Assembly: GCF_900453105.1 (NCBI RefSeq)
Contig: NZ_UGPW01000001.1
Location: 558,001 to 622,000 of the forward strand
Origin: Moraxella ovis
GTDB taxonomy: Bacteria > Pseudomonadota > Gammaproteobacteria > Pseudomonadales > Moraxellaceae
Reading direction: 5' to 3'
DNA length: 64,000 nucleotides
Each line of letters begins with the position of its first letter. Position 1 is the first letter of the stretch. Shown one piece after another: positions 33,068-43,960 of the stretch. The notes below the pieces were generated by a model that worked only from the letters and a program-made list of their open reading frames with translations, made no database searches and was not told the origin of the DNA. The translations under genes and the position numbers were made by a program.

Positions 33068-33721
33068 ATGAAAGTAAAATTCTGTGGATTTACCAGAAGT
33101 GAGGATCTAAAGGTGGCGGTAGCGCTTGGCGTGGATGCGGTGGGCTTGGTGTTCTATCCGCCAAGCCCTAGATATGTGGATATGGTTGCTGCACGCAGTT
33201 TGGTGGCAGATTTACCGCCTTTTATGAATGTGGTGGCGCTCGTTGTTAACATGGCAGAAGATGAGTTCGTACAGCTTAGCAATACTGTGCCGTTCGATGT
33301 GGTGCAGTTTCATGGCGATGAGACTGCAGCGGATTGCCAAAGACTTGCCAATCTTACCAAAAAACGCTGGTACAAGGCGATTCGCGTCCAAGAATCCGAC
33401 ACAGTTGAGAGCCTACTTACACAAATCCACGAATTAAAAGCGCATGGCGCCAGCGGCGTTCTGTTGGATGCTTATCATCCTGATAAATTTGGCGGTACGG
33501 GACAGGTCTTTGACTGGACAAAGATCCCAACCAATTCAACGCTACCCATCATCTTGGCAGGTGGACTAACCCCTGATAATGTCGCAAGCATTACCCAAAA
33601 TGAGCTTGCTCATCGCCTATATGGACTTGATGTGAGTGGTGGTATTGAAAAGGCAAAGGGGGTAAAATGTGGGGAGAGAATGGGGCGGTTTATGAATTAT
33701 ATAAATAATAGTTATAAATAA
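33068..33721 (+). CDS. trpF: Phosphoribosylanthranilate isomerase
   Basis: TIM-barrel enzyme of tryptophan synthesis. KFCGFTRSEDL carries the catalytic Cys at the N-terminus (usually KICG[IL]T), with AVGLVFYPPSPRYV, VQFHGDE and GLDVSGGIEKAKGVK. The catalytic Asp lies in LLDAYHPDKFGGTG. Length is 217 residues. In related genomes trpF is normally followed directly by trpB; here about 2.5 kb of other genes intervenes. Confidence 0.95.
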   Translation: MKVKFCGFTRSEDLKVAVALGVDAVGLVFYPPSPRYVDMVAARSLVADLPPFMNVVALVVNMAEDEFVQLSNTVPFDVVQFHGDETAADCQRLANLTKKRWYKAIRVQESDTVESLLTQIHELKAHGASGVLLDAYHPDKFGGTGQVFDWTKIPTNSTLPIILAGGLTPDNVASITQNELAHRLYGLDVSGGIEKAKGVKCGERMGRFMNYINNSYK

Positions 33722-33805
33722 GAAAAATATTATAAAATTTATCTTGACGCATAAACCATAATTATGTAGTATCTAGTTCTCATTTTTTAATATGGAGTTT
33801 TAAAA

Positions 33806-34710
33806 ATGACGAACAATGAAATTGTTGCACGGTTCTATCATCATGATCACACTAGAGATGACGAATTTGCAAAAAAATTCGTACGCTTCAAGATGTTGGT
33901 TATGTGTTGGATGGTTTGGATGTAGATAATGTTTTACCATTGACGCCTGCTACAAGCGGTTTTGTTGATGAGACTGAAATTATTGAAACGGCGCAAAGCT
34001 TATTTTCATATTTAAGTGGCATGCAATTGTACCCTGTGGTTTATGAGGGGGAAAATAATGGTAAGTTATTGCGTCATGTCGTACCACGAGAAGGTATGGA
34101 AAAACAAATTAGCTCTTATGGTTCTAAGGAAAGTTTTTTGCCTCATGTAGATAATCCAGATTTAGCCATCAGGACTGAAGTTTATAGAAAGGTATCTCCA
34201 TGTCCAGACACATTATCATTATTGTGTTTAAGGCAACAAGAGGGTGTTGCAACAAGTATTATTAAGCTTGATGATATCATATCAAGTCTTAGCCATAGGG
34301 ATATAAATTTATTACAAGAAGAATGTTTTTGTGTCTCTAGACCAGCATCATTTGATAAAAAATCAAATCTTAAAAATGTTCCTTTATTGTCGGTTGATAA
34401 GGGAAAATATATTTCTAGATTTGATTATCATAATGTTTTTTCCGAAAACCCAATACATCAATCAGCATTAGAAAATTTTAAGAAATCAAGTCTTGATAAT
34501 TCAAAATGGATTGAATTGTATCTTCAGCCAAAACAGATAATAACATTTGACAACCAAAGAGTATTGCATACTAGAAATGGCTTTGTTTCAGAATTTAATG
34601 GTTCTGATAGATGGTTAATAAGAGTATTTGGTTTGTACTATAAGCCAGATGGTTCTTATCTTATTTCTCAAGATTGTCATCATCATTTATCTGCACCATT
34701 ATTTTTGTAA
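33806..34710 (+). pseudogene. Fe(II)/2-oxoglutarate oxygenase of the VioC/AsnO type, frame broken at an A7 tract (possible phase-variable or recoded gene)
   Basis: The gene starts at the ATG at 33806 behind GGAG, reads 24 codons to two Lys codons in an A7 run (33871-33877), then meets a stop at the end of a short wrong frame. A -1 shift there restores a frame running to 34710, giving a product of about 301 residues. The restored part has LPLTPATSGF, like the LPPTP signature of clavaminate-synthase-like oxygenases. It also has the iron triad HVD (about residues 114-116 of the joined protein) and distal His in VLHTRNGF, and the 2OG-binding Arg in RWLIRVFG. These resemble arginine and asparagine beta-hydroxylases. 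The region is markedly AT-rich. Whether it is dead, phase-variable or recoded cannot be told from sequence. Confidence 0.8.
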
Positions 34711-34719
34711 GGAGTTGTT

Positions 34720-35502
34720 ATGTTTGTAGATGGTAGTATTATTGCACAATATTTTTATATTGGTTTGACTTTATTAATTCTTGCTTCATTTATAGCAGGT
34801 TATATTGATGCTGTTGCTGGTGGGGCTGGTTTAATTTTGGTTCCTGCATTTATGTTGGTGGGCTTGCCTCCTCAATTGGCACTTGGTCAAGAGAAATTGG
34901 TAAGCACAATTGGAACTGTGGCAGCTATCAAGAATTTTATTAAAGCTAAATCTATTATTTGGAAAATTGTACCTATAGGTATTGTTTCTGCACTGATAGG
35001 AGCTTTTATAGGTGCAAAAGCCATATTAATGTTTCCAAGCCATATTATTGAATATATAATTTTCGCCTTTTTGCCAATTGGATTGATAGCCACCTTGTTT
35101 AAGGGTAAAATTGTAAAAGACAATCAAGGAGAAATAAAAAAATCTGCTTTAGCAGTTTTTATTACTTGTTTATTGGTTGGTTTTTATGATGGTTTTTTTG
35201 GTCCAGGAACTGGTAGTATTTTTATTATTGCTTTATATCTAATCAACTCCTTATCATTATTACAAGCATCAGCTACTTCAAAGATTTTTAATTTTTCATC
35301 AAATATTGGGGCGTTTGTCGCATTTGCAATCGCAGGAAAAATGGCTTTTGCAATTGGCATACCTATGATTATTGCTAATTTGTTGGGTAATCATTTTGGT
35401 AGTCTGCATGCTATTAAAAGCGATGGAGCAATCATCAAAAAAGTTTTGGTTGTTACGGTTGGTCTTATGATGGTAACTTTGGTTTATAAATTTATTTTTT
35501 GA
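34720..35502 (+). CDS. TSUP (TauE/SafE) family membrane transporter
   Basis: 260-residue membrane protein with about eight helices in two repeated halves. GYIDAVAGGAGLILVPAFMLVGLPP at the start and VGFYDGFFGPGTGSIFIIAL in the second half are the paired TauE/SafE signatures. TSUP members export sulfite, sulfoacetate or other organic anions; the substrate here is unknown. AAGGAG precedes the ATG, and it starts 9 bases after the oxygenase frame, so the two are almost certainly one unit. AT-rich like the oxygenase. Confidence 0.85.
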   Translation: MFVDGSIIAQYFYIGLTLLILASFIAGYIDAVAGGAGLILVPAFMLVGLPPQLALGQEKLVSTIGTVAAIKNFIKAKSIIWKIVPIGIVSALIGAFIGAKAILMFPSHIIEYIIFAFLPIGLIATLFKGKIVKDNQGEIKKSALAVFITCLLVGFYDGFFGPGTGSIFIIALYLINSLSLLQASATSKIFNFSSNIGAFVAFAIAGKMAFAIGIPMIIANLLGNHFGSLHAIKSDGAIIKKVLVVTVGLMMVTLVYKFIF

Positions 35503-35523
35503 TTGACTTTTGGGGTAAAACTT

Positions 35524-36273
35524 ATGAACATTCTAATCACAGGCGTAACATCAGGTTTTGGCAAGCAAATTGCCATTGATTGCATTAAAAATGGCCTTAC
35601 TGTCATTGGCACAGGCCGCCGTCAAAATAAACTTGATGAGCTAAAAAATGAGCTTGGCGATAATTTTATTCCGCTATGCTTTGATGTTAGTGACATATCC
35701 GCGACAAAAGCCGCTTTACAAAGCCTGCCAGCCGAACTACGACAAAACATCGATGTGCTGATTAATAATGCAGGGCTGGCGTTGGGGCTAGATTCTGCTG
35801 ATAAGGCGAGCATGAGCGATTGGCAGACGATGATTAATACCAATACACTTGGACTGGTTAATATCACGCATGAGATATTACCGAATATGGTAGCAAAGAA
35901 TGACGGACTGATTATTAACATCTCATCGATTGCCGGTAATTACCCGTATTTTGGCGGTAATGTCTATGGCGCGACGAAGGCCTTTGTGACGCAGTTTAGC
36001 CTGAATCTTCGTGCTGATTTGATTGGTAAGAATGTGCGAGTTACCAACATTGAGCCTGGGCTGTGCGGCGATACAGAGTTTAGTAATGTGCGCTTTCACG
36101 GTGATGATGAGCGCGCAAGCAAGGTCTATGAGAATGTGGAATTTATCCGCCCACAAGACATCAGTAATATGGTATTATGGCTGATCAATCAGCCCAAACA
36201 TATCAACATAAACCGCTTGGAAGTCATGCCAACGGCGCAGACTTTCGCAGGTCTTACGGTCCATAAAGGCTAA
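35524..36273 (+). CDS. ydfG: YdfG-like SDR: NADP+-dependent 3-hydroxy acid dehydrogenase
   Basis: Short-chain dehydrogenase of 249 residues. Cofactor motif TGVTSGFG and [11 protein letters not shown] (NADP-type Arg pair), NNAGLALG, the catalytic Ser in [11 protein letters not shown] and the YGATK Tyr/Lys pair. [21 protein letters not shown] and the C-terminus closely follow E. coli YdfG, which oxidises serine, allo-threonine and 3-hydroxy acids. The ATG at 35524 is chosen over the track start at 35503. Composition is closer to core genes than that of the two upstream genes. Confidence 0.88.
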
Positions 36274-36296: not shown

Positions 36297-37508
36297 ATGA
36301 GCAATACCGATTTTACCCAATACCCCAACGCCTCAGGTCATTTTGGCATTCATGGCGGACGTTTTGTGTCCGAAACCTTGATGAGCGCTTTAGAAGAGCT
36401 AGAACGCATTTATTTATCCGTTAAAAATAACCCTGACTTTTGGGCCCAGTTTCATGATGATTTGGTCAATTATGTCGGTCGCCCCACACCGCTTTATTTT
36501 GCCAAGCGATTAAGCGAAGAAACTGGCGGTGCCAAAATCTACCTAAAACGAGAAGACCTAAACCACACAGGGGCTCACAAGGTCAATAACACCATCGGTC
36601 AAGCCCTACTTGCCAAAATGGTCGGTAAAAAGCGTATCATCGCTGAGACAGGAGCAGGTCAGCATGGCGTGGCAACGGCAACGATTGCGGCACGGCTTGG
36701 CTTAGAATGTGTGGTTTATATGGGGGCGGACGATGTAGAACGCCAAAAAATGAATGTCTATCGTATGAGACTTTTGGGGGCGACTGTCGTGCCTGTTACA
36801 AGTGGTTCTCGCACATTGAAAGATGCAATGAATGAGGCGATGCGAGACTGGGTAACGAACGTGGACAGTACCTATTATGTCATCGGCACGGTGGCAGGTC
36901 CACACCCTTATCCTGTGCTGGTGCGTGATTTTCAGGCGATTATTGGGCGTGAAGCCAAAATGCAACACCTTGAAAAAGAAGGAAAAAATCCTGACGCACT
37001 GGTGGCGTGCGTGGGCGGTGGCTCTAATGCCATAGGGCTGTTCTATGAGTTTTTAAATGACGATGACGTGGCGATTTATGGCGTGGAAGCAGGCGGACAC
37101 GGCATTGACACAGGCGAGCATTCTGCCCCCCTAAATGCAGGGCGTGTGGGCGTGTTGCACGGCAATCGCACCTATCTGATGGCGGACGATGACGGTCAGA
37201 TTTTGCACACGCACAGCATATCGGCAGGGCTTGACTACCCCGGTGTTGGCCCTGAGCATAGCTTTTTAAAGGACGCTGGGCGTGTCAATTACCCTGTCAT
37301 CAATGATGATGAAGCTCTAGAAGCCTTTCGTATTTTGACCAAAACCGAAGGCATTATCCCTGCCCTAGAAAGCTCGCACGCGGTGGCTTATGGGCTAAAA
37401 CTTGCCAAAACAATGGGCAAAGACAAATCTATCATCATCAACTTATCAGGGCGTGGCGATAAAGATTTGCATACGGTGATGAAAGTGGATGGGATTGAAA
37501 TGGATTGA
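36297..37508 (+). CDS. trpB: Tryptophan synthase beta subunit
   Basis: PLP enzyme condensing indole and serine to tryptophan. PLP Lys95 lies in [10 protein letters not shown], the catalytic Glu in the [11 protein letters not shown] segment and the phosphate-binding loop in [12 protein letters not shown]. Length of 403 residues is normal. It lies 23 bases after ydfG. Next gene should be trpA, but a 618-bp orphan intervenes. Confidence 0.97.
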
Positions 37509-42874: not shown

Positions 42875-43960
42875 ATGCTATCTAAACTCATCGTAATATC
42901 ACTTGCGTTGTTCTGCTTGGGCTTAACTGGTACAATCCACGCCCATCTACCAATCGCTAACCAGCGAATAGATGTGTCGTTGATTCGGCCTCTGCCACCC
43001 CCTAGTGCCAAACCAGATGGCCGTGGGGTTGCTATTGAAAATCTTGTCGGCGTTATGGTGCTGATTATGAGCACGACCCTTACTTAAAAGATGATGTCGT
43101 GCTTTTTTGCCGTTGGCAATGGCAAGCATTGTATGATTCTTTACAGAAAAAACTCAAGAGCATCCCGATCATTTAGATACTTATCGCCTACAAGCCGAAG
43201 CTTACTTCATCAATAAAGAATATCAGCAGGCATTATCTCAACTAGATCTTGTCCTAACGAGAAACCCATTTGATAAGCATGCTTTGGCGATGACGGTGCT
43301 TGCATGTCGTGTGTTAGAGGATAAAAATCAGGAGCAGAGTCGTCTGGCATGGCTTGGAAGTATTGATGCTCATTTGGCTGAAAAACCTACCAACATGTTC
43401 GCTTTCGTGGAGGTGTGGCTGGAACAATCATATGATGATGAACCTAAATCGCAAGTAATACCAGACACCATCGCTGTGTTCGGTTCATCACCCAATCTGG
43501 ATGAAACACCCAGTGCGGGTATGTTGAAGCGTCTGTACTTAACAAAAAAGATGGCCGATCGCTTTTCTGATGCCATCATTTTTGTCAGTGGCGGTCCGGT
43601 CAAAACACCTTTTTTTGAATCTCAAGTCATGGCGGATTGGCTTGTGGCACATGGCATCGATGGGAAGCGTATTTTTTGGATGACCAGGCTAGGGATATGC
43701 CAGGCAATGCCATTGGCATGATCACTCTGATGCGTCGTTATCAAGGCAAACGAGTGTTGGCGGTAGCGACGCGAGGGCACATACCAAGAGCCAGTGCTGT
43801 ATTAAAAAGTTATGCCGACCATGTTCATTATCCGATAGTCGTTGATTCTGTTGGTGGTGGCGAGCCATTAAATCCTCAAAAAGCAAAGACCGAAGCACTG
43901 TACCCCTATGTGAATGTTGTCAGAGTTTCAGGGCTTTTCACAAAAAGTGATTTTCAATGA
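42875..43960 (+). pseudogene. YdcF/DUF218 family envelope protein pseudogene with TPR-like middle, at least three frameshifts
   Basis: A signal peptide starts at 42875 (MLSKLIVISLALFCLG). The reading frame must shift near 43050, again near 43140 (beside an A6 run) and again near 43672 (in a T6 run) to keep coding. Read through, it gives a secreted protein with TPR-like helices (YRLQAEAYFINKEYQQALSQLD) and a DUF218 domain (DTIAVFGSSPNLDETPS ... IIFVSGGPVKTPFFES ... MPGNAIGM). DUF218 proteins of the ElyC/SanA/YdcF group act in envelope integrity. Three shifts argue for decay rather than phase variation. Confidence 0.8.

Follow-up and report, generated by a model that had tools for sequence, protein, structure and literature searches.

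A frame break at an A7 tract, probably a recent loss of function, in a putative amino-acid hydroxylase gene of Moraxella ovis beside an intact transporter gene

Introduction

The described enzymes closest to the oxygenase considered here are AsnO, the L-asparagine 3-hydroxylase (PDB 2og5-2og7), and KDO1, the L-lysine 3-hydroxylase (PDB 6f2a, 6f2b and 6f2e), which are the best matches both by sequence profile and by the modelled fold of an intact relative, P0001. VioC, the L-arginine 3-hydroxylase, belongs to the same superfamily and shares the fold of P0001, but the Moraxella gene is not its orthologue. Unlike AsnO and KDO1, to which it is about 20–25% identical, the Moraxella oxygenase is encoded next to a TSUP transporter gene, and its own gene is broken.

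Frameshift pseudogenes are of an ordinary kind in host-associated bacteria. The Moraxella locus resembles such pseudogenes in its single homopolymer break, in the broken orthologues of sister species and in the absence of the gene from the nearest relatives, whereas it differs from the ordinary case in that the body of the gene is still well kept and the partner transporter gene is intact. The Escherichia coli dnaX gene and IS elements, which we take as the comparison cassettes for −1 programmed frameshifting, share with the Moraxella gene the form and phase of a slippery heptamer. Unlike in those cassettes, however, no stimulator was found around the Moraxella site, the tract is not conserved, and the intact relative needs no shift. 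Bacteriocin producers offer a further precedent: they lose the maker gene while the immunity genes stay.

Results and discussion

We analysed a stretch of 64,000 nucleotides (C1:558001-622000; hereafter, the window) of the 2,322,490-base M. ovis genome, which consists of three contigs. Its second contig resembles an M. ovis plasmid, with 99.6% identity across 62% of the 12 kb that we compared. The zero-frame piece of the oxygenase gene (33806..33925, + strand) opens with ATG 33806, preceded by GGAG at 33794-33797, and stops at TAG 33923-33925 after 39 codons; it consists of the start and 24 N-terminal oxygenase codons, followed by 15 out-of-frame codons and the stop, and its residues 1-25 match P0001. 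The frame changes at an A7 tract (33871-33877, + strand), where the zero frame reads GCA AAA AAA TTC and thus contains the formal −1 slippery heptamer A_AAA_AAA. The oxygenase body (33904..34710, + strand; family residues 34-301 by alignment to P0001) lies in the −1 frame as an open reading frame (ORF) of 268 amino acids from GTG 33904 to the stop TAA 34708-34710, and this frame is free of stops back to about 33862. P0001 is an intact oxygenase of 301 amino acids with 96% identity; it stands for 25 sequences clustered at 90% identity, among which the window's own fragment may be found. Against it, the N-terminal 25 codons correspond to residues 1-25 and the body to residues 20-301, each at 96%, and we therefore regard the two pieces as one gene in two frames rather than two chance ORFs. 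The initial annotation had described just this arrangement, with the start codon, the Shine-Dalgarno site and the first 24 codons in one frame and the rest in the −1 frame, joined at the heptamer, and both the coordinates and the junction agreed when we read them again.

Ahead of the gene, a consensus scan found a promoter-like site, TTGACG-17-TAGTAT (33744..33772, + strand; 9 of 12 matches); the 2-kb region contains 11 such sites against 10.3 expected from shuffles, so this site is weak by itself. At the same place in a congener (G013, L031), a similar promoter-like sequence, TTGACA-17-TATTAT, was seen by eye, kept upstream of a gutted oxygenase remnant.

The oxygenase gene and the TSUP (TauE/SafE family) gene behind it form an inserted pair bordered on the left by trpF (33068..33721, + strand). 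The TSUP gene (34720..35502, + strand) is intact and has its own AGGAG at 34710-34714. It is followed by a YdfG-like short-chain dehydrogenase gene (35503..36273, + strand; best NCBIfam match PRK10538, 352 bits against a cut-off of 411) and by trpB (36297..37508, + strand). Elsewhere in the window (42877-43960), a gene whose product we take to resemble YdcF/DUF218-type proteins is broken by three frame changes, all of them away from runs of 7 or more bases, and is open in the related genome G016 (369 aa, L129).

The family of the oxygenase was assessed from profiles, a structure model and conserved residues. The TauD profile PF02668 scored the truncated body at 25.9 bits, slightly under its gathering score of 27, and a profile built from 12 intact relatives matched the solved structures of AsnO (E 4.9e-18), KDO1 (E 1.6e-15) and VioC (E 3e-12). 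An AlphaFold2 model was made of P0001 (mean pLDDT 94.8), through which alone the window's pieces are represented, and Foldseek placed KDO1 (E 4.5e-22) and AsnO (E 1.7e-21) closest to it. The −1-frame body keeps H114, D116 and H255 (34144, 34150 and 34567), which are presumably the metal ligands HxD...H; together with R269, which we take to be the conserved arginine of the family, they are invariant in 57 related sequences. The initial annotation had likewise placed the iron ligands in the body. It had also named a VioC/AsnO-type oxygenase, which holds for the superfamily and the fold but not for orthology with VioC: the body scored 47.6 bits against the VioC equivalog cut-off of 418.6 in NCBIfam. 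The score for GntD was likewise far under its cut-off (73.8 bits against 345). By family, fold and ligands, the gene is predicted to encode an Fe(II)/2-oxoglutarate amino-acid hydroxylase of the AsnO/VioC/clavaminate-synthase type, and its putative reaction is probably the hydroxylation of a free amino acid at the beta carbon.

The body opens with a GTG codon, and we considered whether a normal product might start there. The P0001 model has two confident helices, at residues 3-10 and 15-31, both ahead of residue 34, which corresponds to GTG 33904. A product initiated at this codon would be predicted to lack both, and normal expression from it is unlikely.

We searched for P0001 in 57 genomes, 22 of them Moraxella and the genome under study included, with one genome per species for orthologues. 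Close orthologues were present in three of the 57, and all three are broken, by different lesions. Besides the window, these are G004, in which the oxygenase is recognisable from about residue 129 on and the TSUP gene is intact, and G013, which retains only the last 77 oxygenase residues and has its TSUP gene in pieces. Across 299 genomes of the family there were eight matches, namely the same three and five distant open homologues with 27–31% identity, and no further close orthologue. In the nearest relatives, G011 and G016 (97% in trpB), the gene is absent and trpF directly precedes the dehydrogenase gene; in Moraxella, trpB is preceded by the dehydrogenase gene even where the oxygenase-TSUP pair is absent. 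Some of the genus genomes surveyed are incomplete (G003, 63%).

Several features were noted among the relatives. Between the broken oxygenase and the TSUP start of G004 lies a perfect 9-bp tandem repeat of 8.7 copies (L030:7448-7525). P0002, P0003 and P0004 (82%, 78% and 68%) begin at internal residues and come from contigs of 5–16 kb; their N-termini may be out of frame. In Neisseria canis, the same protein is entered twice, as P0017 (303 aa) and as P0025 (239 aa), the shorter starting inside the longer; a different start call, a strain difference or a frame break may account for the gap.

Apart from the single shift, the body had been described as showing no decay. Its conserved columns bear this out almost fully: at 60 columns conserved in at least 90% of 57 relatives (residues 34-301), it departs only at 243, as does P0001. 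The description is nevertheless too strong, with nine differences from P0001 over 268 aligned residues and a lean of the changes to the window's side. With P0002, P0003, P0004 and P0005 as outgroups, the window-side and P0001-side changes numbered 7:1, 6:0, 6:1 and 3:0 (two-sided p = 0.07, 0.03, 0.13 and 0.25, respectively; the outgroups are interrelated and the tests not independent). Four of the changes cluster at residues 262-267, a cluster that recombination could explain too, and among 116 columns conserved in at least 60% of the relatives, the window has two departures (262 and 265) beyond those of P0001. The TSUP protein showed no consistent lean against P0095 with six outgroups (2:5, 6:1, 4:1, 3:3, 4:3 and 3:3), and against P0096 and P0097 it had fewer changes on the window side in 10 of 10 comparisons. 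A nearly unharmed body, as judged from these alignments, would fit a recent break, an error or a switch alike.

We consider a recent loss-of-function frameshift probable and the best reading of the locus. The frame is interrupted relative to intact homologues, as in a pseudogene. A 301-aa relative is intact elsewhere (P0001), the genus orthologues are broken by different lesions or, in G011 and G016, missing, and the changes in the body lean to the window's side while the TSUP protein has no such consistent lean. Against a loss stand the small relative-rate counts (p 0.03–0.25) and the conserved residues, none of which is lost beyond the one that P0001 also lacks; with the break in the N-terminal region, the body stays almost clean, an outcome that an error or a switch would equally produce. 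In the course of such a loss, a one-base frame break would have arisen near the N-terminus of an accessory hydroxylase gene, at the A7 tract, a kind of site prone to spontaneous indels. Translation from the proper start would end after 39 codons, presumably yielding little or no enzyme, and the lost reaction would be the beta-hydroxylation proposed above. The gene would be on its way out in Moraxella, with the TSUP gene downstream staying intact behind its own ribosome-binding site. A miscounted homopolymer is the alternative under which the gene would be intact in the strain. Among A/T runs of 7 bases or more, those reaching at least 8 make up a smaller share in this assembly (13 of 184) than in six relatives sampled over 580 kb (49 of 346; p = 0.016), and inside ORFs the difference recurs (4 of 102 against 22 of 179; p = 0.019), so a single error has to be kept as a rival; G019 (five stretches) and an own-genome stretch (L108, C1:2160001-2180000) were left out of this comparison, and L108 also of the ORF frame comparison, the 8-base-run alignment and the A7 count described below. 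One of five 8-base runs of relatives in alignable DNA corresponds, through a one-base gap, to a 7-base run in the window, and the almost undamaged body agrees with an error. However, 68 of the 69 own-genome ORFs that could be compared with relatives' proteins (72 kb) are without a frame change, which does not show pervasive homopolymer error, and the one exception (window 42.9-44.0 kb) is interrupted three times, always outside runs of 7 or more bases. The orthologues of two other Moraxella genomes are independently broken, and the amino-acid changes lean to the window's side. We therefore regard a sequencing or assembly error as unlikely, and loss of function as the better account.

Two further alternatives, both raised by the initial annotation, would make the tract a working element. 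Under phase variation, the tract length would vary reversibly and the gene would have been caught OFF. The homopolymer does lie within the first 25 codons, with the body kept and an intact copy elsewhere; a Rickettsiales endosymbiont of Peranema (L069) has an unrelated N-terminal frame change, located at a C11 run; and AAAAAAA is avoided in every frame of E. coli genes, for which the available part of PMC4066793 offers slippage or indel mutation as possible reasons. Yet seven bases make a short run, and A7 is frequent here. We counted 27 A7 and 14 T7 runs in the window; a 404-kb sample of the own genome (the window and 17 stretches) has 283 open ORFs with 150 residues or more, and these contain 69 exact A7 runs, of which 26 are in the slippery phase. 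A Lys-Lys pair stands at the tract position in only 2 of 12 intact relatives (alignment A2), no conserved slippery site was seen in alignments A1 and A2, the G004 and G013 orthologues carry large irreversible damage, and no run of at least 7 coincides with the N-terminal break of Haemophilus aegyptius (L064). The claim that A7 is a phase-variation element thus found no support, and we consider such a switch improbable. Slippage, ribosomal or transcriptional, would have to supply useful amounts of full-length enzyme. The zero-frame A_AAA_AAA does have the X_XXZ_ZZN form and the body frame is open; according to the available part of PMC4066793, 61% of heptamers of this form cause measurable shifting in E. 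coli, above background and with no stimulator present, and low-level slippage at A7 may therefore occur. On the other side, four RNA folds around the tract, computed without pseudoknots, revealed no stimulatory structure beyond shuffles (z = 0.17, −0.20, 0.13 and −0.98), and in the 30 nt upstream of the heptamer, which include the span of 6–17 nt where such an element would be sought, we read none of the SD-like elements listed in the available part of PMC4066793. P0001 and other relatives are continuous and need no shift, the N-terminal frame changes of H. aegyptius and the Peranema endosymbiont lie at positions other than that of Moraxella, and 26 runs of the same phase sit inside open ORFs. 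For transcriptional slippage, the available part of PMC1088944 places evident counter-selection at nine bases and above in a large share of genomes, with variation, and allows for slippage at shorter runs in some bacteria; at seven bases, the tract is below this length of about nine and not unusually long for the genome. The heptamer is therefore real as a formal site, but nothing marks it as a device: programmed frameshifting as a designed signal is rejected, and slippage to useful levels is very unlikely. As this case illustrates, the frequency of a heptamer across the genome should be counted before one that looks slippery and sits at a break is taken for a regulatory signal. The frame break itself, probably a recent loss of function, is ordinary.

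The gene set around the oxygenase was examined by a genome contig search with alignment A2, which returned 28 loci in named genomes (18 of the 28 from Pseudomonas, so the counts are not independent); the same search with the body of the window's oxygenase alone found no relative. In all 28 loci the oxygenase is followed downstream by a TSUP gene of this kind; in L068 another gene separates the two. A YdfG-like dehydrogenase gene is present in 23 (21 downstream, 2 divergent upstream), and in three others (L067-L069) there is a relative of 3-hydroxyisobutyrate/2-hydroxy-3-oxopropionate dehydrogenases, below curated cut-offs, so that 26 of the 28 loci have a beta-hydroxyacid-type dehydrogenase gene of one type or the other. 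L089 has a GNAT acetyltransferase gene instead, and L063 has neither dehydrogenase type nor GNAT. Both types of dehydrogenase use beta-hydroxy acids as substrates, in keeping with a beta-hydroxylated product. In a class-wide sample of 369 genomes, the oxygenase and the TSUP gene were each found in two, the own genome included in both. In the titles and abstract openings returned by our literature searches, we found no description of the oxygenase-TSUP pairing, of AsnO with phase variation, or of Moraxella pseudogenes with TauD or oxygenase.

As in Moraxella, trpB follows the gene set in H. aegyptius (L064) and Actinobacillus minor (L066) and, by eye, apparently also in Candidatus Endobugula sertula (L068). 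Plasmids of Klebsiella pneumoniae and Serratia symbiotica (L145 and L146) carry the oxygenase-TSUP pair followed by a GNAT acetyltransferase gene; 40 of the 89 matching plasmid records are from Klebsiella, and the plasmid GNAT is weakly like ArsN1 (23.9 bits against a cut-off of 170).

The gene set and its asymmetric decay are the most interesting point of the analysis, more so than the frame break. Adding the three Moraxella loci to the 28 gave 31, and the oxygenase is broken with the TSUP gene intact in six of them: the window, G004, H. aegyptius (L064), A. minor (L066), the Rickettsiales endosymbiont of Peranema (L069) and Rosenbergiella (L089). Both genes are broken in G013 and Helicobacter vulpis (L086), and the TSUP gene alone in none of the 31, an asymmetry of 6 to 0 (p = 0.03) in loci that are no random sample, having been located by way of the oxygenase body. 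The oxygenase of L068 has no recognisable N-terminus and was left out of the six. In 140 genomes of the family of G306, which we infer to be the Pasteurellaceae because H. aegyptius and A. minor supply both of its oxygenase loci, the oxygenase occurs in two, both broken, and the TSUP gene in six, all open; within 1.5 kb on either side of the TSUP gene, no oxygenase was found in the other four of these six. In the window, L064 and L069, one frame change within about the first 50 codons is the sole visible lesion. That of L069 falls, by frame assignment by eye, at a C11 run (L069:4923-4933) in a 7.8-kb locus whose next longest homopolymer is T8, and L064 has no run of at least 7. Three N-terminal breaks in different lineages suggest repeated loss or switching, but such cases are too few for a decision.

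The hydroxylase-transporter-dehydrogenase set is found both in chromosomes and on plasmids of Klebsiella and Serratia symbiotica, and in several lineages its enzyme gene is broken and its transporter gene kept. One speculative reading, by analogy with the immunity genes of bacteriocin producers, is that an undescribed small module would join a free-amino-acid beta-hydroxylase to a TSUP exporter and to either a beta-hydroxyacid dehydrogenase or an acetyltransferase. Its maker of a released or toxic hydroxy-amino acid would be repeatedly lost or switched off by frame breaks, some at homopolymers (A7, C11), and the transporter would be kept for export or protection. We hold this reading to be doubtful. 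If the asymmetry persists across a full survey, this TSUP type would gain a testable role, namely exporting a hydroxylated amino acid or protecting against it.

A second oxygenase-like gene is present in the own genome outside the window (C1:2182102-2183948; L032:6103-7949). It is open, encodes 350 aa and is distant from the first (27% to P0001, E 7e-4); another TSUP gene (262 aa, about 35%) directly follows it, and a divergent LysR-like gene, seen by eye, adjoins.
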